This document shows, one piece after another, positions 1 through 14,883 of a DNA stretch of 25,702 bases. Position 1 is the first letter of the stretch, and every line of letters starts with the position of its first letter. A model generated the notes under the pieces. That model was not told where the DNA came from and did no database searches. It saw nothing but the letters and a program-made list of their open reading frames with translations. The DNA comes from a virus: positions 1 through 25,702 of IMG/VR virus record IMGVR_UViG_3300030328_003242; one strand, 5' to 3'. The translations under genes and the position numbers were made by a program.

Positions 1-3000
1 TCGCTAGTAATATTGTTTGGACTTTACCTAGTGCTGATGGAAGTTCTGGTCAAGTTTTACAAACTGCAGGTAATGGAACTTTAAGTTGGACAACAGTAGA
101 TCTAACTGCATTAAATGCAAGTAATCTAACATCTGGAACCATACCAGATGCTCGTTTTCCTGCGACATTACCTACTGTTAGTGGTGTAAATTTAACAGCA
201 TTAAATGCAAATAATTTAGGTTCAGGAACCATACCAGATGCCAGATTCCCAGCAACACTTCCAGCAGCAAGTGGTGCCAACTTAACAGCATTAAACGCAA
301 CTAATCTTTCTTCTGGAACAGTTGGAACAGCAAGACTTGGTTCTGGTACAGCTTCAAGTTCTACCTTCTTAAGAGGTGATGGTAGTTGGGCTGGTGCTGG
401 AGTTACTTCTGATGCTCAATATAATACTGTTGCTGGAACTAATGCTGGAGATAGTTTTAGTGGTACGAGTGCAGAAAAGAATACCTTATTCGGATATGAC
501 GCTGGTACTGCAATAACTACTGGAGACGAAAATTCCTTTTTTGGTAATAGTGTTGGAAAAGTAACAACTGGTTCTCAAAATTGTGGTTTTGGAAATAACG
601 CTCTTTTAGCTAATACATCGGCTAATCATAATACTGCTATTGGTAATTGGTCTTTATCATCAAATACAACTGGAGTAGATAATGTTGCAGTAGGATTTGA
701 AGCTCTTGCTTATGGCATTACTACTGGAAATTATGTTACTTCTGTTGGAACTGAATCTGGTTGGCGTAGTACAGGTTCTAACAGTGCATTTTTTGGATAT
801 AGAGCTGGATATGGTGCATCAGGTGCAAGTGGTAATAACAATGTTGCAATAGGAAATAATACGCTTAAGCAATTTACTACAGGTAATGAAAATGTAGTTA
901 TTGGTTATCAAGCAGGTTTCTCTATTACTACGAGTTTCAAAAACGTAGCAGTTGGAAATTATGCATTAGATACAAATACTACTGGAAATTTCAGTACTGC
1001 AGTAGGACATCAATCTTGTACAGATGTAACAACAGGTATCCACAATACAGGATTTGGATATCGTTCTTTATACTCAGTAACAACAGGTCAATATAATACT
1101 GCAATAGGTGGTCTATGTGCAGATGATTTAGAAACTGGAAGTAATAATACAATAATAGGATATGGTGCTAATGCTAGTGCAGTTGATGTAAGTAATGAAG
1201 TAACAATAGGTGATACAAATATAACCAAGTTCCGTATTCCAGGTCTTAACTTCTCGATTAAAGATAGTACAGCAACAAACGACTACGTTTTAACAGTCGA
1301 TGCAAATGGTGATGCAGGTTGGGAGGCAATTAGTGCAGGTCCAGGTACAGGTCAACAATACGTCACTTTAGAAACTAGTAATAGTCCTAGTAATACTGGA
1401 GTTAATACCTTTGCTGGTTATAACGCTGGAAATGCTCTTACTTCAGCAGATCACACAACACTTTTTGGTTATCAGGCTGGAGCTGCTATTACAACTATTG
1501 GTAATAACTGTTTCTTTGGAAGTGGTGCTGGTCAAGCTACAACTACAGGCGGAGATAATTGTGGTTTTGGACAAGCAACTCTTCAAACTAGTACAACTGG
1601 AGCAAATAACGTAGCCGTAGGAAGAGAGGCTTTAAAAGCTTTAACAACAGGTACGTATAATATTGCACTTGGTCATAGAACAGCAGATACTTTAACCACT
1701 GGTACAAAGAACGTATTTTTAGGTAAAGATGTAGCAGGGCTTAATGCTGTTACTGGTAGTTATAACATAGGGATTGGTAATCATGCGTGTCATTCAGTAA
1801 GTAGCGGTGAGGCAAATGTAGCTATTGGAGCTGATGCGTTATTATCCAATACGACAGGAAATTATAATACTGCGATAGGCATGGATGCCTTAAGAACAAG
1901 TACAACAGTAGCCAGCAATACCGCAATTGGAAACCAAGCTTTAAAAGCAAACACAACAGGTCTTCTTAATGTTGCTGTTGGTAAAGATTCTTTACTAGTA
2001 AATACTACAGGATGGGGACATGTCTCTGTTGGCATGAATTCTTTAAAAGCAAATACAACCGCAAATGCTAATACAGGTGTTGGTTATTACTCATTAGGAA
2101 CCAATACAACTGGAACAAACAATACTGCTATTGGATACAATGCTATGGCATTGAATACAACAGGTGGTTATTGTGTTGCAATAGGTCATTCAGCTGTAAA
2201 TTATAATTCAACAGCTTCCTATAATATAGGTGTTGGAGCAGAAACTCTGTTACAGAGCACAACGGGAGCGAGTAATATAGCAATTGGTTATCAATCTTTA
2301 TATACAAATACTACAGGTCATAGTCACGTTGCAGTAGGTCATAAGGCATTATATAGCAATGTTGCTGCTGAAAAATGTGTTGCTATAGGATTTGAAGCTT
2401 CATATGCACAGACAGGAAATAATGTAGATGAAAACGTTGCTGTTGGTTATTACGCATTAAGAACAAATACAGGTGGTAATGTCAATACTGCAGTTGGAAG
2501 TCATGCTTTATATGGCCTAACAACAGGTGCTAGCAATACTGCCATTGGAGCTAGTGCAGCAAAAGTAAATACAACAGGACATAATAATGCTTCTTTTGGT
2601 TCTTATTCACTATATGCAAACACAACAGGTGCTTATTTAACTGCTATTGGTAGAAGTGCTTTGATGGCAAATACAACAGCAGATAGCAATACAGCAGTTG
2701 GTTATGACGCTTTATATTCAAACACTACAGGTGCTATTAATACTGCTGTTGGTAGAGACTCTTTAAGAGCAAATACTACTGGAGGAGGAAATAGTGCTTT
2801 AGGTTATTATTCATTAGCAACAAATACAACAGGTGAAAAAAATGTAGGTATTGGATATAACGCTCTTGGTCTAAACACAACAGGTGGTTATAGTGTTGCA
2901 GTTGGTCATTCAGCTTTAATGGCTCAGACTAATGGCGGTCAAAGTGTAGCTATTGGATACGAAGCAGGTAAAACAATAACTAGTGGTAGTCAAATTACAG

Positions 3001-6000
3001 CTATTGGTCATAACGCTTTAAAAGTTTGCACTGCAAGCCATAATACTGCTGTAGGATTTAGTGCTGGTCTTGCTGTAACTTCTGGTAGTGGAAATGTTCT
3101 GATAGGACGTAGCGCAGGTAATGATATAACAACAGGTAGTAATAATATCGTTCTTGGACTAGATAGTGATTCTAGTTCAGCAACAGTATCTAACGAAATA
3201 ACTTTAGGTAACGCAAATATCACCAAGTTTAGAATCCCTGGAATTAACTTCTCAATTAAAGACAGTACGGCTACTAACGACTATGTTCTTACAGTTGATG
3301 CAAATGGTGACGCTGGATGGGAGGCCATTTCAGCAGGTCCAGGTACAGGTGAAATTTATGTAAAACTAGAAACTGCTGCTGGTGCGGCTGCTAATAATGG
3401 AAGCAATACTATTGCAGGTTATGAGTCAGGTCTTGCTATATCAGATGGATCAGATAATACTTTTTATGGTCAAAGAACTGGTAAAGCTGTAACTACTGGA
3501 GATTATAATGTTGCCGTTGGTTCGGAAGCTTTAGAAGCTTGTACAACAGGTGGCTATAACACGTCTCTTGGTGCCAAAACTTTAGAAAATCTTACAACAG
3601 GATCTGAAAATACTGCCGTTGGTTATGGAGCTCTCCAATGGGCAACCACAGGATACGGCACCGTTGCAATTGGAAAAAATGCAGGTGCTAATACAACATA
3701 CACAGGAGGACAAAATGTCTTAGTTGGTGTTAATGCTGGGCTTGGTCTTACTTCTGGAGGTGAAAGTGTTTTTCTTGGCTATGGAGCTGGAAAAGCTTTT
3801 ACTACAGGTAGTAGCAGTGTTTGTATCGGACGTAATGCAGGTGAAAAGATAACAACTGCTGCTGGGAATATTGTTATGGGTTGGAATGCTGCAGAAACAT
3901 TAACAACTGGTGGTGGTAATGTCATTTCAGGTTATGGAGCTTTTATAGCTGCAACAACAGCAGCATATAATACCGCTATAGGTGGAAGTGTAGCAACAAG
4001 TATTACGACAGGTCAACAGAATACAATACTCGGATCTGGTACGGCTACTAATTTAACTACAGGAAGTAATAACACTATTATTGGACGTAGTGCTCAACCA
4101 AGTTCTGCAACAGTATCTAATGAAATAACTTTAGGTAATAATTCAGTTACTAAATTTAGAGTTCCAAATCTTAATTTTGTAATTAAAAGTTCTACCGCTA
4201 CTGAAGACTATGTTCTAACCGTTGATGCTAACGGAGAAGCTGGTTGGGAAGCTGCTGGTGGTACGTCTACTGGTGAGACTTATGTAAACCTTAAAGATGG
4301 TTCTGGTAATGCTTCTAATAGTGGAACCAATACTTATGCAGGTTATCAGGCGGGTGCTGCTTTAGCTAGTGGTAGTAATGAAAACACTTTCTATGGTAAA
4401 TCAGCAGGTAAAGCAGTTACAACAGGAGACGATAATATCGCAGTAGGATGTAGTGCTTTAGAACGTGTTACGACTGGATCAAAGCATGTTGCTATCGGAA
4501 AATTTGCTTTAGAAACTGCTACAACAGTTGATGAGCTAACTGCAGTAGGCTATGAAGCTTTAAAAGAAAATTCATCAGGTACAAATAATACTGCTGTTGG
4601 TTATACTGCTGGTAAAGAAATTACAACAGGAACGAATAATACTTTATTAGGAGATCAAGCTGGTAAACAGATTACAACAGGAGAATATAATTGCATAATA
4701 GGAAGTGAAGCTGGTGATGAAATTACAACTGCTATCAATACCGTTGCTCTTGGTCTTGCTGCATTAAGTGCTTGCACTACGGGTGGTAACAATGTTGCAA
4801 TAGGTCGTAGTGCTTTACGCTTTCTTACTACGGGAGCCGATAACACTGCTGTTGGAGCTTTTGCTTTAAACGCTAATACAGCAACAGGTAATACAGCGTT
4901 TGGATCGGATGCGTTAAGAGCTAACACTAGTGGATCTGCAAATTTAGCTTGTGGTCAAAATACCTTAAAAGTTAATACAACGGGAGCTAGTCTTACGGCT
5001 GTAGGAAGTGGAGCTTTAACAGCAAATACAACTGCCGAAAAAAACACAGCATTAGGTATATCGGCTGGTGCGGCGATGACCACTGGAGGCTTTAACACAG
5101 CCATAGGTGCATGGGCCGTAGATAATTGCACAACTGGTACTTACAACAGTGGTGTTGGAATATGGGCTCTAAGGGCTGTCACAACAGGGAATTACAATAC
5201 AGCACTAGGCGGTAGGGCTGGTAATACTATGACTACTGGTAATTATAATGTACTTTTAGGTTATCAAGCTGGAGACGCTATAACGACAGCTTCTGAATGT
5301 ATTTTCATAGGTAGAGATTCAGGCGGTGGAGTAACGACTGGTGACTACAACATTGCTATCGGTCCAGAATCCATGATGGGTGCTGTCACTGGAACGCATA
5401 ACGTAGTTGTAGGAAGAGACGGTTTACGTGCCATCACTTCAGGTAATTACAACATTGCACTTGGTAGTGACACAAATAGGGTAAATACAACTGGTAGTAA
5501 TAACATATCTATTGGATATAGGGCATTATTTAGCAACACAACTAGCGATAACGTAGCGGTTGGGCATAAAGCTTTAGACGCAACTACTAGTGGAGCTAAA
5601 AATACTGCGCTTGGTAGTGAGGCTGGTAAAACACAATCAACTGGACAAGACAATACATATATTGGTTATAAAGCTGGTCATGTATCAACAGCTGATGACA
5701 ATACGTTTGTTGGTAAAGAATCTGGTCTTACAAATACAACAGGTGCAAGAAATACATTTATTGGTAAAGATGCTGGCTATGCAAATACTACGGGATCCGA
5801 CAATACTATTTTAGGTTTTGATGCAGGTGATGCAATAACTACAGGTGGACAAAACGTCTGTATAGGTAATAGTGCAGGTTCTACTTTTACAACAGTTAGT
5901 CACTGTGTATATATTGGAAAAGATTGTGGTCAAAATGCAACAGGTAATGGTAACACTGCAGTTGGATTAGATGCTGCAAGAGGAATAACTGGAGTAAGTA

Positions 6001-6473
6001 ATACTTGTCTAGGCAGAGGTGCAGGTGAAGATCTTACAAGTGGAGCAAATAATACTATTATTGGAGCTTTTGCAGAAGCAAGTTCAGCAAGTGTTGATAA
6101 CGAAGTAACTTTAGGTGATAGCTCAATAGCAACCTTACGTTGTCAAGTAACAAGTATTACTGCACTATCTGATAGACGAGATAAAACTGACATCAATACA
6201 TTAGATTTAGGATTAAATTTTGTTGATGCTCTTAAGCCAGTTAAATTTAAGTGGAATTCTAGAGAAGGCATACTAAGAGATGGTACTTACGAAGCAGGTT
6301 TTATTGCCCAAGATTTCCAAGAAGTACAGAAAGACAATGATGCAGATTACCTTAATTTAGTTTTAGAATCGAATCCAGAGAAACTTGAGGCAGCTCCTGG
6401 AAAACTAATTCCAATCCTTGTAAAAGCAATACAGGAATTATCAGCTAAAGTAAAAGCTCTCGAATCTGCATAA
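1..6473 (+). CDS. Giant repeat-rich tail fibre/adhesin with C-terminal S74 chaperone (5' truncated)
   Basis: The frame that starts with the codon at base 3 is open from the window edge to the TAA at 6471-6473, giving at least 2156 residues. The ATG at 1881 is internal and not the start. In order the protein shows: about 30-residue tandem units (LTALNASNL...GTIPDARFPATLP) at 102-347; a phage-fibre motif FLRGDGSW near 365-390; four blocks of 17-residue repeats of the form NTTGxxNTAIGYxALxx; and a final 101 residues beginning SDRRDK that match the S74 intramolecular chaperone. Established knowledge: S74 domains help fold trimeric fibres and cut themselves off with a Ser-Lys pair. The AIG-type repeats recall trimeric YadA-like heads. 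Inference: a trimeric host-recognition fibre at the tail tip. The true N-terminus, which would attach to the virion, lies upstream of this window. Confidence 0.9.
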   Translation, partial: ASNIVWTLPSADGSSGQVLQTAGNGTLSWTTVDLTALNASNLTSGTIPDARFPATLPTVSGVNLTALNANNLGSGTIPDARFPATLPAASGANLTALNATNLSSGTVGTARLGSGTASSSTFLRGDGSWAGAGVTSDAQYNTVAGTNAGDSFSGTSAEKNTLFGYDAGTAITTGDENSFFGNSVGKVTTGSQNCGFGNNALLANTSANHNTAIGNWSLSSNTTGVDNVAVGFEALAYGITTGNYVTSVGTESGWRSTGSNSAFFGYRAGYGASGASGNNNVAIGNNTLKQFTTGNENVVIGYQAGFSITTSFKNVAVGNYALDTNTTGNFSTAVGHQSCTDVTTGIHNTGFGYRSLYSVTTGQYNTAIGGLCADDLETGSNNTIIGYGANASAVDVSNEVTIGDTNITKFRIPGLNFSIKDSTATNDYVLTVDANGDAGWEAISAGPGTGQQYVTLETSNSPSNTGVNTFAGYNAGNALTSADHTTLFGYQAGAAITTIGNNCFFGSGAGQATTTGGDNCGFGQATLQTSTTGANNVAVGREALKALTTGTYNIALGHRTADTLTTGTKNVFLGKDVAGLNAVTGSYNIGIGNHACHSVSSGEANVAIGADALLSNTTGNYNTAIGMDALRTSTTVASNTAIGNQALKANTTGLLNVAVGKDSLLVNTTGWGHVSVGMNSLKANTTANANTGVGYYSLGTNTTGTNNTAIGYNAMALNTTGGYCVAIGHSAVNYNSTASYNIGVGAETLLQSTTGASNIAIGYQSLYTNTTGHSHVAVGHKALYSNVAAEKCVAIGFEASYAQTGNNVDENVAVGYYALRTNTGGNVNTAVGSHALYGLTTGASNTAIGASAAKVNTTGHNNASFGSYSLYANTTGAYLTAIGRSALMANTTADSNTAVGYDALYSNTTGAINTAVGRDSLRANTTGGGNSALGYYSLATNTTGEKNVGIGYNALGLNTTGGYSVAVGHSALMAQTNGGQSVAIGYEAGKTITSGSQITAIGHNALKVCTASHNTAVGFSAGLAVTSGSGNVLIGRSAGNDITTGSNNIVLGLDSDSSSATVSNEITLGNANITKFRIPGINFSIKDSTATNDYVLTVDANGDAGWEAISAGPGTGEIYVKLETAAGAAANNGSNTIAGYESGLAISDGSDNTFYGQRTGKAVTTGDYNVAVGSEALEACTTGGYNTSLGAKTLENLTTGSENTAVGYGALQWATTGYGTVAIGKNAGANTTYTGGQNVLVGVNAGLGLTSGGESVFLGYGAGKAFTTGSSSVCIGRNAGEKITTAAGNIVMGWNAAETLTTGGGNVISGYGAFIAATTAAYNTAIGGSVATSITTGQQNTILGSGTATNLTTGSNNTIIGRSAQPSSATVSNEITLGNNSVTKFRVPNLNFVIKSSTATEDYVLTVDANGEAGWEAAGGTSTGETYVNLKDGSGNASNSGTNTYAGYQAGAALASGSNENTFYGKSAGKAVTTGDDNIAVGCSALERVTTGSKHVAIGKFALETATTVDELTAVGYEALKENSSGTNNTAVGYTAGKEITTGTNNTLLGDQAGKQITTGEYNCIIGSEAGDEITTAINTVALGLAALSACTTGGNNVAIGRSALRFLTTGADNTAVGAFALNANTATGNTAFGSDALRANTSGSANLACGQNTLKVNTTGASLTAVGSGALTANTTAEKNTALGISAGAAMTTGGFNTAIGAWAVDNCTTGTYNSGVGIWALRAVTTGNYNTALGGRAGNTMTTGNYNVLLGYQAGDAITTASECIFIGRDSGGGVTTGDYNIAIGPESMMGAVTGTHNVVVGRDGLRAITSGNYNIALGSDTNRVNTTGSNNISIGYRALFSNTTSDNVAVGHKALDATTSGAKNTALGSEAGKTQSTGQDNTYIGYKAGHVSTADDNTFVGKESGLTNTTGARNTFIGKDAGYANTTGSDNTILGFDAGDAITTGGQNVCIGNSAGSTFTTVSHCVYIGKDCGQNATGNGNTAVGLDAARGITGVSNTCLGRGAGEDLTSGANNTIIGAFAEASSASVDNEVTLGDSSIATLRCQVTSITALSDRRDKTDINTLDLGLNFVDALKPVKFKWNSREGILRDGTYEAGFIAQDFQEVQKDNDADYLNLVLESNPEKLEAAPGKLIPILVKAIQELSAKVKALESA
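102..347 (+). repeat. Tandem 30-residue (90-base) fibre repeats
   Basis: Two full units at 102-191 and 192-281 and a diverged third from 282 each begin LTALNA(S/N/T)NL and continue SGT(I/V). The first two share PDARFPATLP. Repeats of this kind are common in tail-fibre shafts of marine phages. They precede the RGDGSW motif and the AIG repeats, and more copies may lie left of the window. Confidence 0.85.
1191..1352 (+). repeat. Fibre linker module, copy 1
   Basis: This is a 54-residue segment starting SNEVTIGDTNITKF, then an RIPGLNF core, a DYVLTVDANG core, and ending GPGTG. It closes the first repeat block. By eye it differs from copy 2 at about five residues, although many codons differ synonymously. 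Confidence 0.88.
3189..3350 (+). repeat. Fibre linker module, copy 2
   Basis: This is a 54-residue segment starting SNEITLGNANITKF and ending GPGTG, the same length as copy 1. It closes the second, long repeat block and opens the third. Confidence 0.88.
4116..4274 (+). repeat. Fibre linker module, copy 3
   Basis: This is a 53-residue, more diverged copy starting SNEITLGNNSVTKF. It keeps DYVLTVDANG and GWEA but ends GGTSTG. It separates the third and fourth repeat blocks. Confidence 0.85.
6096..6143 (+). repeat. Fibre linker module, partial copy 4
   Basis: Only the first part of the linker is present (DNEVTLGDSSIATLR). It then runs into the segment just before the S74 domain, so the linker head here serves as the junction to the chaperone. 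Confidence 0.7.
6168..6470 (+). other. S74 intramolecular chaperone/autoprotease domain of the fibre
   Basis: The domain starts at Ser (6168-6170) in SDRRDK, with Lys five residues on (6183-6185), then LKPVKFKW and GFIAQDFQEV, and ends in a short helical tail (AIQELSAKVKALESA). This spacing matches the Ser-Lys pair known from endosialidase-type fibres, where cleavage occurs just before the Ser. Predicted cleavage is therefore between Leu and Ser at base 6168, releasing a 101-residue C-terminal piece. Confidence 0.88.
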
Positions 6474-9428: not shown

Positions 9429-9758
9429 TTATTTTAAAGGAGGATTGAAATCTTGAGCTTTAGCTAAACCTTTAGGATTAAAATCATAATTTATAGTTAA
9501 TTCAGTTTTTGGATTTATCCTTTTATGAGCACGTAAAAAATAACCATTTTCAGAAGATAAATAATGTAAATGGCAATTTGGATCATATGAATGATTAACA
9601 AAACCCATTGGTCCTAATGATCTACCTGTTTTATCAAATTGAAATTTATTATTTTTATTATATAAATTAGCAACAGGTAAAATTTCTAATGGATTAAGTA
9701 TTTTTTTAGTAAATAATCCTAATCCTTGTATATCAGAATTTGTTATATAAAAATCCAT
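9429..9758 (-). CDS. Minimal SET-domain protein (putative lysine methyltransferase, 109 aa)
   Basis: Nearly the whole protein is a SET core: GLGLF at 12-16 (cofactor-side motif), FVNHSYDPNC at 53-62 (the N-H-S motif with the pseudoknot PNC), and ELTINYDF at 86-93 with the conserved Tyr91. There is no visible post-SET Cys cluster. SET proteins use S-adenosylmethionine to methylate lysines; small viral SET enzymes of about 110-120 residues are known from algal viruses. In a phage the target could be a host ribosomal or DNA-binding protein or a virion protein, which the sequence does not show. It stands alone between the exported-protein unit and small phage genes. Confidence 0.85.
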   Translation of the reverse strand: MDFYITNSDIQGLGLFTKKILNPLEILPVANLYNKNNKFQFDKTGRSLGPMGFVNHSYDPNCHLHYLSSENGYFLRAHKRINPKTELTINYDFNPKGLAKAQDFNPPLK

Positions 9759-12317: not shown

Positions 12318-12980
12318 CTATCCTTCATCATAATCGGGCGTATCTTTAACAGATAATGGATGTTCAATGGTCTTACTATATTTCTCTTCAATAATTTCTT
12401 GTTCTCTGTTTAATATTTTTGCTTTACTTATTCGCATTAATTTATCGGCTTCAAATCTAGTACAAAACGGTTGAATTTTTTTAGGATAAAATCTTTTGTT
12501 AAATATTGAAATCATATGTAAAGGATTAAGACACCATGGATTAGAACATAATCTAGTTACAAATATATTTCCTATATCACCCCATGCACAATTGTAAATA
12601 ACTTTATGTGCTGTAGTATTTTCTGATTTCTGAGAACTATATTGTGAACGGTAAGAAGGAAAACAAACTCTATGAGGAACTCGTTTCCCTGGAAGATTAG
12701 CTTCCCAACATTCATTAAAATCTTTGATATTGATATTAGCCCATAAACGTTGATATTTAGTTTTATAATCTGTATGCAAATAATTAATATCAAAACCACA
12801 AATATTAGATTCTATTTTCTTTACACAGTAATAACACCAATGATGTTTAATATCTCGAATATTATGTCCATGACAACAAGTAAAACCTTTATAGTATCCT
12901 TTTTCTTTTAGTTTTTTATCATCTAATTCATCAATATCTTTAACGTATCTAAAATCAATGGGGTCAGAATTTAACATCAT
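12318..12980 (-). CDS. Zinc-binding HNH/homing-endonuclease-like protein (220 aa)
   Basis: The protein has two predicted metal sites: Cys35/Cys36/His37/His39 with Cys49-x2-Cys52, and a C-terminal LCSNPWCLNPLH (Cys145, Cys150, His155). The second resembles the zinc-binding loop of I-PpoI-type (His-Cys box) homing endonucleases. The basic segment RVCFPSYRSQ precedes it. The likely role is a free-standing endonuclease that promotes its own spread or cuts competitor DNA. The start shares a base with the stop of the 102-residue gene (TAATG), so the two are coupled. A gene-regulatory zinc protein is the alternative. Confidence 0.72.
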   Translation of the reverse strand: MMLNSDPIDFRYVKDIDELDDKKLKEKGYYKGFTCCHGHNIRDIKHHWCYYCVKKIESNICGFDINYLHTDYKTKYQRLWANINIKDFNECWEANLPGKRVPHRVCFPSYRSQYSSQKSENTTAHKVIYNCAWGDIGNIFVTRLCSNPWCLNPLHMISIFNKRFYPKKIQPFCTRFEADKLMRISKAKILNREQEIIEEKYSKTIEHPLSVKDTPDYDEG

Positions 12981-13288
12981 TAATAACGAATAGGTTTTAA
13001 TTCTAATCTGTTGTCTTTTGTTTTATTTAAATGATTATGTTTTATACAGCAATTATCAGGAGAATAAGCTGTTCTCAAATAATATACAATTCTATGAACC
13101 ATATAACTTTCATTATCAATTGAAACAAAATAATATCCATTAGTTTTATTTTTGGTACCTACAGAATCACCTATTTTATATTTACCTTTGTTAATAGCCC
13201 ATGCTAATCCAGTTGGATACTTATCGGATAGTTTAAATAATTCCTCTAAATGCCATAAAGGAGGCATCTTTTTGTAGTTGTGAGGCAT
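12980..13288 (-). CDS. HNH-like endonuclease, possibly degenerate (102 aa)
   Basis: The motif VHRIVYYL at 64-71 followed by CIKHNHLNKTKDNRLEL at 81-97 matches the phage HNH layout (HR at the start, H..N..DNR later). The usual central DHxN is altered to HNH, so activity is uncertain. The N-terminal part (GTKNKTNGYYFVSI) is the short beta-sheet region commonly found before HNH domains in phages. It is the first gene of the minus-strand operon that begins inside the palindromic region at 13300-13441. Confidence 0.68.
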   Translation of the reverse strand: MPHNYKKMPPLWHLEELFKLSDKYPTGLAWAINKGKYKIGDSVGTKNKTNGYYFVSIDNESYMVHRIVYYLRTAYSPDNCCIKHNHLNKTKDNRLELKPIRY

Positions 13289-13299
13289 TGAAGTGACAT

Positions 13300-13441
13300 A
13301 AAAACATAGAATAGTATAGAAATTTCTTATGTCTAGAGATAAATTACATTTTTATTCTAAGTTTTTTAGTCTCATAAGACTCAGAATAGAAGTGTAATTT
13401 AAACTACGCATAAGAAAAAAATACCCTATTCTGTGTTTTTG
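13300..13441. repeat. 142-base imperfect palindrome between divergent genes
   Basis: The arms are 13300-13362 and 13381-13441, and the centre is a perfect small stem AGTCT-cata-AGACT at 13369-13382. Aligning the left arm to the reverse complement of the right arm, 25 of the first 32 bases match, and the rest aligns with one single-base gap, including AAATTACA and CATAAG on both sides. Both arms therefore present the same element outward (CATAAG...CTATTCT(A/G)TGTTTTT) toward the genes starting at 13288 (-) and 13488 (+). It could be a duplicated divergent promoter with operators, a structured RNA or a replication/terminal hairpin. Confidence 0.85.
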
Positions 13442-13487
13442 CTGCAAACATACCTGAAATAAAATAAAGGAAAGTAAAAACATATAA

Positions 13488-14522
13488 ATGTTTAATTACA
13501 GACCTCAATGGTTAGATGCTGCTAAAAGAGCACAAGCTGCTAAAACACTTGGTCATCAACCTATTAATTCAACTAAATATTTAACTACAGTAGGAAAAGG
13601 AGTTCAAGGTACTGTTTATGAAGGAACTCCAGGAAATGTTGTTAAATTTATGAAAGGTAAAGATAAAGAACAAATATTAAGAGAAGCTGATGTTCAATCT
13701 TTAGCATATGAATTAGGTATAGCACCTCCAGTTCATGCTGTTTATACCAACCCTAGTAAGAGAAAACCTAGTGTAAATATGAAAGCTGAAGGAATTAATC
13801 AGTTATACGATGGACAAATAGTTATGGAAGATTTGCGTAATAACTATATGCCTTTAACGGAACATTTAGGATCTACAAGTACTAATCTTTTTGACATGAC
13901 TAATGATCCAAATTCTATAAAATATAGAGCTTATAAATTAGCAGAAGCTCAACAAATGGCTAAATTAAATCAAGCAGGTTATAAAGTAAATGATCGTCAT
14001 TCAGGAAATGTTTTAATTCATAGAAAAACAAAAAAACCAATACAACTTGATTTTGGATATACTAGAAAACTAGATAGATCTGACAAGATAGATCAAATTG
14101 CAAATGAAGTTAAAGATGGAATGTATCAAGCAGGGTTAATAGATGAAGGTATTATTTTAAAAGAATCAGTTTTTGATTTAATGAGTAGAGGACAGATTGA
14201 TGACGCAGAAGATGTTGCTTTACAAGGTTTAGCAATGTTAAATAAAATTGAACAACCATTAAAAGAATATGCTCCTACTTTATTAAAAGAAAGTGAAACA
14301 TTAAATCCTAATTATTTTGGAACAGGAGCTAGAGGTCTTAATAAATGGATAAAAGGTTCAGGAACATTAGACCAAACAGTAGGAGCTTCTACTATAGAAA
14401 ATCAGTGGAATGCTTATAATACGGTTAAAGAACATATGAATAAAAAACAAGCAGGATTATCACAAGCACCTTCTTGGTGGAATAAATTAATTGACGATAG
14501 ATTTGATGAGATGGGCCTTTAA
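13488..14522 (+). CDS. Protein-kinase-fold protein with intact catalytic residues (344 aa)
   Basis: All core kinase motifs are in order: Gly-rich loop VGKGVQGTVYEG at 35-46, Lys53 in VVKFMK, a helix-C Glu (E66 in READVQ), a hinge-like IVMEDL at 111-116, a catalytic loop NDRHSGN with Asp169 and Asn174 five residues apart, and DFG at 188-190. The short connector and DRHSGN form recall RIO/ABC1/lipopolysaccharide-kinase relatives rather than classical Ser/Thr kinases. The C-terminal 150 residues are helical without a recognised domain. It is transcribed opposite to both flanking operons from its own short region holding a large palindrome, so it looks like an autonomous insertion. The substrate is unknown: a protein, a sugar or a small molecule is possible. 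Confidence 0.82.
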   Translation: MFNYRPQWLDAAKRAQAAKTLGHQPINSTKYLTTVGKGVQGTVYEGTPGNVVKFMKGKDKEQILREADVQSLAYELGIAPPVHAVYTNPSKRKPSVNMKAEGINQLYDGQIVMEDLRNNYMPLTEHLGSTSTNLFDMTNDPNSIKYRAYKLAEAQQMAKLNQAGYKVNDRHSGNVLIHRKTKKPIQLDFGYTRKLDRSDKIDQIANEVKDGMYQAGLIDEGIILKESVFDLMSRGQIDDAEDVALQGLAMLNKIEQPLKEYAPTLLKESETLNPNYFGTGARGLNKWIKGSGTLDQTVGASTIENQWNAYNTVKEHMNKKQAGLSQAPSWWNKLIDDRFDEMGL

Positions 14523-14529
14523 AATTTAT

Positions 14530-14883
14530 TTATTTTAATTCAACTCTTCCATAATCATCTTCTATACGTACAATATCCTTTTCAGAAATTTTATCCCCGA
14601 ATTGGACTTCTATAAGAACTAAGTCTGTTTTATCTGCTTTAATTCGGTGAGTTCCTTTAACAGGGATATGAATACATTTACCAGTTCTAGCTATTTGCCA
14701 TATACCATTAGCAAAAACTTCTCCTTCTCCTGATGCAATAATCCAAGTTTCACTTCTATGGTTGTGATACTGAAGACTAAGCTGTTCTCCTTTTTTTACA
14801 TTAATAATTTTAGCTAAGTAACCAGGACCTTGAAACAAAGCTTGCCACCATCCCCAAGGTCGAAAAGTAATCTTTCTAAGCAT
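14530..14883 (-). CDS. Mannose-6-phosphate isomerase type II cupin domain (117 aa)
   Basis: The sequence follows the family closely: FRPWGWW at 7-13, SLQYHNHRSETW (metal-binding His pair and Glu), IASGEGEV, a Gly-x-H core near IPVKGTHRI, LIEVQFGD, and DIVRIEDDYGR at the end. This cupin is usually the C-terminal part of mannose-1-phosphate guanylyltransferase fusions; here it stands alone. The expected reaction is mannose-6-phosphate/fructose-6-phosphate interconversion with a bound metal, in the cytoplasm. Its start overlaps the glycosyltransferase stop by 8 bases, so they are one unit, consistent with supplying sugar for modifying surface glycans or virion proteins. Confidence 0.85.
   Translation of the reverse strand: MLRKITFRPWGWWQALFQGPGYLAKIINVKKGEQLSLQYHNHRSETWIIASGEGEVFANGIWQIARTGKCIHIPVKGTHRIKADKTDLVLIEVQFGDKISEKDIVRIEDDYGRVELK

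Follow-up and report, generated by a model that had tools for sequence, protein, structure and literature searches.

The window analysed here, which covers bases 1-25702 of a virus record 57,074 bases long, carries a plus-strand gene (13488-14522, ATG to TAA) for a 344-residue protein, P0001, that is probably an active, atypical minimal protein kinase of an S-EIV1-lineage cyanophage, an accessory enzyme that would phosphorylate one or a few host proteins for the purposes of takeover or counter-defence. The parts of this reading differ in strength: catalytic activity, predicted from the sequence, is highly likely, a protein substrate is quite likely, and a role in takeover or counter-defence is somewhat favoured over other roles. 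In the proposed mechanism, ATP would be held by the Gly-rich loop, K53 and E66, and phosphotransfer would be carried out by D169, N174 and D188. Phosphorylation of one or few host proteins during infection would in turn redirect host metabolism or disarm a host defence.

The 344-residue ORF had been proposed in an earlier, sequence-only reading of this DNA, and is borne out by the sequence and its translation, the opposite strand of 13488-14522 being full of stop codons. Every active-site element named in that reading lies where it was placed, namely the Gly-rich loop V35-G46, VGKGVQGTVYEG (13590-13625), the beta3 ATP-binding lysine K53 (13644-13646), the alphaC glutamate E66 (13683-13685), the DRHxxN-type catalytic loop D169-R-H-S-G-N174 (13992-14009) and the metal-binding DFG of residues 188-190 (14049-14057), all on the plus strand. 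The kinase core extends from approximately residue 30 to 262, and the remaining residues, 263-344 (14274-14519, plus strand), form a fast-diverging tail that is mostly confined to P0001 and its close relative L001. The gene had also been described as running against both neighbouring operons, which is correct because the genes on each side, 12980-13288 and 14530-14883, are on the minus strand.

Searches with P0001 alone return nothing above cut-off in Pfam, NCBIfam, PADLOC or the PDB, including no Pkinase (PF00069) match in Pfam, and no convincing tblastn match among the INPHARED phages. Below the cut-offs, partial matches to Pfam PI3_PI4_kinase (PF00454; 17.1 bits against a cut-off of 27.1, and 26 residues only) and ABC1/UbiB (PF03109; 14.9 bits against 22.9) fall on the catalytic loop, and PHROG_18305 ('kinase') is matched weakly (E 4.1e-5). 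A single-protein search of IMG/VR finds one close relative, L001, with 79% identity by BLAST and 85% over aligned residues. A degenerate DNA pattern, DRHxGN-x12-LDFG, identified 11 IMG/VR stretches, all 11 of which encode relatives by blastp, and a profile built from the pattern-scan relatives identified 38 loci in IMG/VR. The resulting alignment, A4, comprises 33 distinct sequences, the family thus having at least that many members. Two pattern scans of bacterial genome contigs found no relative, these patterns reaching only moderately close relatives.

The motif match is beyond chance because the residues are kept throughout the 33-member alignment, although identity to P0001 is 31-37% for most members. 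Among the 31 sequences extending over G36, G38, K53 and E66, none of these four residues varies, and D169, R170, N174, D188 and G190 are invariant in all 33, as are M113, D115, N119, Q156, T181 and P184. Homologues lacking Lys53, Asp169 and Asp188 had been named in advance as evidence against a kinase; the homologue search proposed at the same time recovered a family in which all three are retained in every covering sequence. H171 is more variable, being present in 26 of the 33 members and replaced by K, R or N in the others. Two residues before the catalytic Asp, the position of the His in HRD, all 33 members have L or V, and the HRD motif of Hanks-type kinases is thus absent. An NDRHSGN-type loop is unusual among Hanks kinases, and DRHxxN is normal for kinases of the PI3K/PIKK type. 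The description of the loop as atypical consequently holds against Hanks kinases, but not against the PI3K/PIKK type or the kinase's own family, where it is typical. P0001 and L001 form a deep separate branch, the position of which relative to other members is poorly supported. Elsewhere in the family, seven members (L028, L029, L030, L032, L033, L037 and L045) have the loop DRKADN instead of DRHxGN, with the catalytic Asp and Asn retained, and two (L054, 3210-4733, and L055, 4236-5663) have N-terminal extensions of ~250 residues.

P0001 almost certainly has a kinase fold, as judged from an AlphaFold2 model built on the A4 alignment (33 sequences), which supersedes an earlier model from 2 sequences with a pLDDT of 40. 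The mean pLDDT is 79.8, with values above 90 for 175 residues that make up most of the core, and low confidence in the tail beyond approximately residue 270. The model runs from a beta-strand N-lobe, in which K53 lies in strand 50-58 and E66 in helix 60-75, through a hinge and a helix at 144-162 to the catalytic loop, the DFG and three helices only. The predicted C-lobe is therefore cut down, with 6 residues from the DFG to the next helix and no room for an activation segment or APE. A Foldseek search of the PDB with this model matches kinases at a probability of 1.00; there are 778 chains at E <= 0.001, and the best 50 of these are all kinases or kinase-containing entries. TM-scores by query length are low, at 0.26-0.39 among the matches listed, as expected because of the short C-lobe and unstructured tail. 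The top viral fold match is a kinase of Synechococcus phage S-CBWM1, and kinases of cyanophage S-TIM5 are also among the best. Model and fold search thus agree on a bilobal kinase fold, the absence of which had been put forward as grounds for abandoning the idea. P0001 accordingly shows the features of a protein-kinase-like fold (two lobes, Gly loop, beta3 Lys, alphaC Glu, catalytic Asp and Asn, metal-binding Asp), and lacks those of the Hanks type (PF00069), that is, HRD and a full C-lobe with activation segment and APE.

The short C-lobe, with three helices and without an activation segment, is also what would be seen if P0001 were a kinase of small molecules or lipids, with a metabolite, sugar or lipid as its substrate and a likeness to aminoglycoside phosphotransferases or PI3K. 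The DRHxxN loop as found in PI3/PI4 kinases and the weak partial PI3_PI4_kinase and ABC1 matches point the same way, yet this alternative is unlikely: the profile links of the family to phage kinases, including the protein kinase T7 gp0.7, exceed those to any small-molecule family. The A4 profile detects kinases in the S-CBWM1 genome (E 4.0e-10 and 2.1e-8) and in that of S-TIM5 (E 1.8e-7), and finds no kinase in S-EIV1 (complete, 79 kb) or T7. In profile-profile comparison the family matches the S-CBWM1 kinases with Prob 97.6 and E 2.8e-12, and hhalign aligns it with the T7 gp0.7 group over 125 columns (Prob 91.6, E 8e-7). PHROG_18305 matches T7 gp0.7 at 8.6e-23, S-CBWM1 at 1.2e-13 and the window's kinase family weakly, at ~1e-5. 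Because of these profile, profile-profile and PHROG_18305 results, the family is placed, by sequence comparison, as a distant member of a loose group of small phage kinases, probably outside the T7 family proper; on the same footing, the S-CBWM1 kinases are closest to it among phage proteins, with T7 gp0.7 more distant. The earlier statement that P0001 belongs to no known phage kinase family is correct in that no curated family matches above cut-off, but needs qualifying in light of the weak links to PHROG_18305, the S-CBWM1 kinases and T7 gp0.7. The family is genuine and previously unnamed, and of a known kind, the phage-encoded atypical kinase.

The setting of the gene in the window bears on the same alternative, since the neighbours include sugar-handling genes, a glycosyltransferase gene and a cupin/mannose-6-phosphate isomerase C-terminal-like gene (14530-14883, minus strand; PF01050, E 6.6e-25). 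The order glycosyltransferase, cupin, 102-aa gene (12980-13288, minus strand, no family match) and HNH-like gene is common to 13 contigs, only one of which, L072 (the contig of L001), shares the kinase with the window. Compared with the 12 kinase-less contigs, the kinase lies in an inserted segment at approximately 13447-14541 that alters the 3' end of the cupin gene. The cupin C-terminus is VQ(K/E)N(P/L/T)E or EQENTE in all 12 and is encoded in the outer arm of a hairpin; in both kinase carriers it is VELK, with a new tail ELK-stop. The old 3' end, intact as the cupin C-terminus in relatives, survives as a 21-nt remnant, TGCAGCAAAAACACAGAATAG (13426-13446, minus strand), beside the hairpin. 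Because the cupin tails differ and the remnant of the old tail adjoins the hairpin, the comparison of these sequences suggests that the ~1.1-kb kinase segment is derived and entered the cupin 3' end recently, in reverse orientation, at a site of gene turnover. The sugar genes are thus older than the insertion, and the kinase is absent beside them in most relatives, which argues against a sugar or other small molecule as substrate. The A4 profile, which detected the kinase in positive contigs, found none elsewhere in ten of the kinase-less contigs, two of which are 69 and 85 kb long. The kinase is an optional accessory gene at this locus, and non-essential because most relatives lack it there. 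A promoter scan gave fewer sites than in shuffled sequences and carries little information.

The hairpin itself (13300-13440) is 140 nt long, with paired arms of 37 nt and 26 nt, and lies between the cupin and 102-aa genes, adjoining the insertion. Its RNA folding energy is -56.5 kcal/mol (z = -9.1), and eight contigs retain it, 6 of its 46 pairs showing compensatory changes; its support comes mainly from conservation because the covariation energy term is ~0. Rfam gave only chance-level matches at the hairpin. In seven of the 13 syntenic contigs the hairpin alone separates the cupin and 102-aa genes. A 254-aa glycosyltransferase-like gene, with a weak Anp1 match, occupies the hairpin apex in the five others without a kinase (L077, 2433-3346; L080, 3840-4751; L082, L083 and L084), and by blastn the ~70-bp arms lie on either side of it as inverted repeats. 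Together, hairpin and 254-aa gene possibly represent a cassette or landing site. An association of the kinase with the hairpin was considered and rejected, as L005 (on contig L074) and six other contigs have the hairpin without the kinase. A broader picture, in which the kinases form a rapidly evolving family of effectors for takeover or counter-defence across the S-EIV1 lineage and the cargo site here is built around the hairpin as a landing pad or mobile-cassette footprint, is rather unlikely as a whole.

Where the terminase can be tested, the kinase-bearing phages appear by sequence to be of the S-EIV1 cyanophage lineage: the terminase of the window's record shares 81% identity with its Synechococcus phage S-EIV1 counterpart, and those of six kinase-bearing contigs are 54-87% identical to it. 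In three shorter kinase-bearing contigs a terminase was not found. In one survey (G238, PMC5332604) the lineage is reported to make up 3.3% of marine cyanophage content. In a clade labelled marine from its gene content, rather than from the records, the kinase gene is in most cases preceded by DNA polymerase A genes, often with a PF24653 cyanophage outer-membrane-protein gene as well, and is convergent with small genes, among them spanin-like, near-threshold NblA-like, HNH and integrase-like ones; no sugar-related neighbour occurs among the annotated marine gene clusters, a further point against the small-molecule alternative. In the L020-L022 clade, which by terminase is closest to the window's phage, the kinase gene is at a different position, near a virion-protein gene and exonuclease and methyltransferase genes that are also in the window. 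Several other genes of these phages deserve mention. NblA-like small genes (phycobilisome degradation), just below the Pfam cut-off, are found in S-EIV1-lineage contigs (L040, 6445-6783; G005, G006, G018, G002 and G003). A SET-domain gene in the window (9429-9758, minus strand; PF00856, E 1.4e-10) adds another protein-modifying enzyme of eukaryotic type to the kinase in these phages, and a further SET-domain gene lies near the kinase in related contigs (L050, 7419-7823). The window also encodes a 1530-aa tail-spike or structural protein with many TTGxxNTAxG-type repeats (1881-6473).

As an accessory gene that stands alone, in reverse orientation and at a variable site, the kinase gene is in a frequent place for toxin or superinfection-exclusion genes, and the sequence-only reading had offered, as an alternative to host takeover, that it is the toxin component of an exclusion unit directed against phages. 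A kinase that stops the infected host or competing phages is nonetheless improbable. P0001 has no PADLOC match, the gene stands alone as an insertion with no candidate antitoxin or partner gene beside it, the two pattern scans, which reach only moderately close relatives, give no relative in bacterial genomes, and the marine clade, although it has an integrase-like gene, contains no member shown as a prophage. A HipA-type toxin was also considered and set aside, there being no HipA match to P0001 in Pfam at E <= 10.

In the comparison of the window with L001, omega for the kinase is 0.63 in the core, 0.70 in the tail and 0.73 overall (one pair, without a significance test), and is 0.04-0.14 in six neighbouring genes for the same pair. 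dS in the kinase core is 0.08 versus 0.16-0.47 in the neighbours. The combination of high omega and low dS would be explained by a recent exchange together with rapid amino-acid change, or by relaxed constraint, and it could be relaxed constraint rather than conflict that the high omega reflects. The core omega of this one close pair would also suit a degenerate enzyme or pseudokinase serving as a scaffold or ATP sensor, as would the disrupted members of two other contigs, L035 (4851-5684), whose Gly loop is interrupted by an in-frame stop, and L020 (4851-5708), with a frameshift near the core start, each either a pseudogene or a sequencing error. Such a function is very improbable for P0001, however, as the ATP-binding and catalytic residues are all invariant across a large divergence.

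Phage protein kinases have been studied chiefly in T7-like enterobacterial phages. If it is an active protein kinase, as favoured here, the family offers a way to test whether cyanobacteria are subject to takeover or counter-defence by phosphorylation, because it sits in the S-EIV1 cyanophage lineage with a fully conserved active site. A natural presence/absence comparison is at hand, with the window and L001 carrying the kinase, L005 lacking it, and the DNA otherwise syntenic. Phosphorylation of host proteins by P0001 is plausible by likeness to T7 gp0.7, JSS1_004 and other cyanophage kinases. By way of analogy, serine phosphorylation by the T7 kinase stimulates RNase III (PMC4858673), and the JSS1_004 kinase domain phosphorylates, and thereby inactivates, DndFGH (PMC12345140).

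Among known systems, PI3K/PIKK kinases (PF00454) share with P0001 the catalytic segment DRHxxN ... DFG, but no part of that domain outside the 26 matched residues is recognised in P0001. In polyvalent-protein kinases, most of the C-terminal subdomain has been lost with the active-site residues kept (Iyer et al. 2017, PMC5512222), a loss paralleled by the three helices that follow the DFG in the confident core of P0001. Those kinases have an insert between a conserved His and the Asp, whereas the P0001 family is without that His, and P0001 is a stand-alone cyanophage protein. T7 gp0.7 and JSS1_004 resemble P0001 in having a phage kinase domain with GxG, VIK, DxHxGN-[IV]-M and D. T7 gp0.7, however, has DP where P0001 has DFG, and its C-terminal host-transcription shutoff region gives no alignment to P0001 beyond the kinase domain. 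The gene for gp0.7 directly precedes the phage RNA polymerase, whereas that for P0001 lies between the cupin gene and a hairpin that is next to HNH-type genes. The S-CBWM1 kinases (APH-like and RIO-like by fold-library name) and those of S-TIM5 are, like P0001, small and cyanophage-encoded, with a Gly loop, Lys, G-x-x-P after alphaC and a loop with D and N. They belong to other phage lineages, their loops are of the H-x-D-L/F-x-x-x-N type in contrast to DRHxxN, and P0001 lacks the N-terminal KGKSCG Cys motif of the S-CBWM1 proteins.
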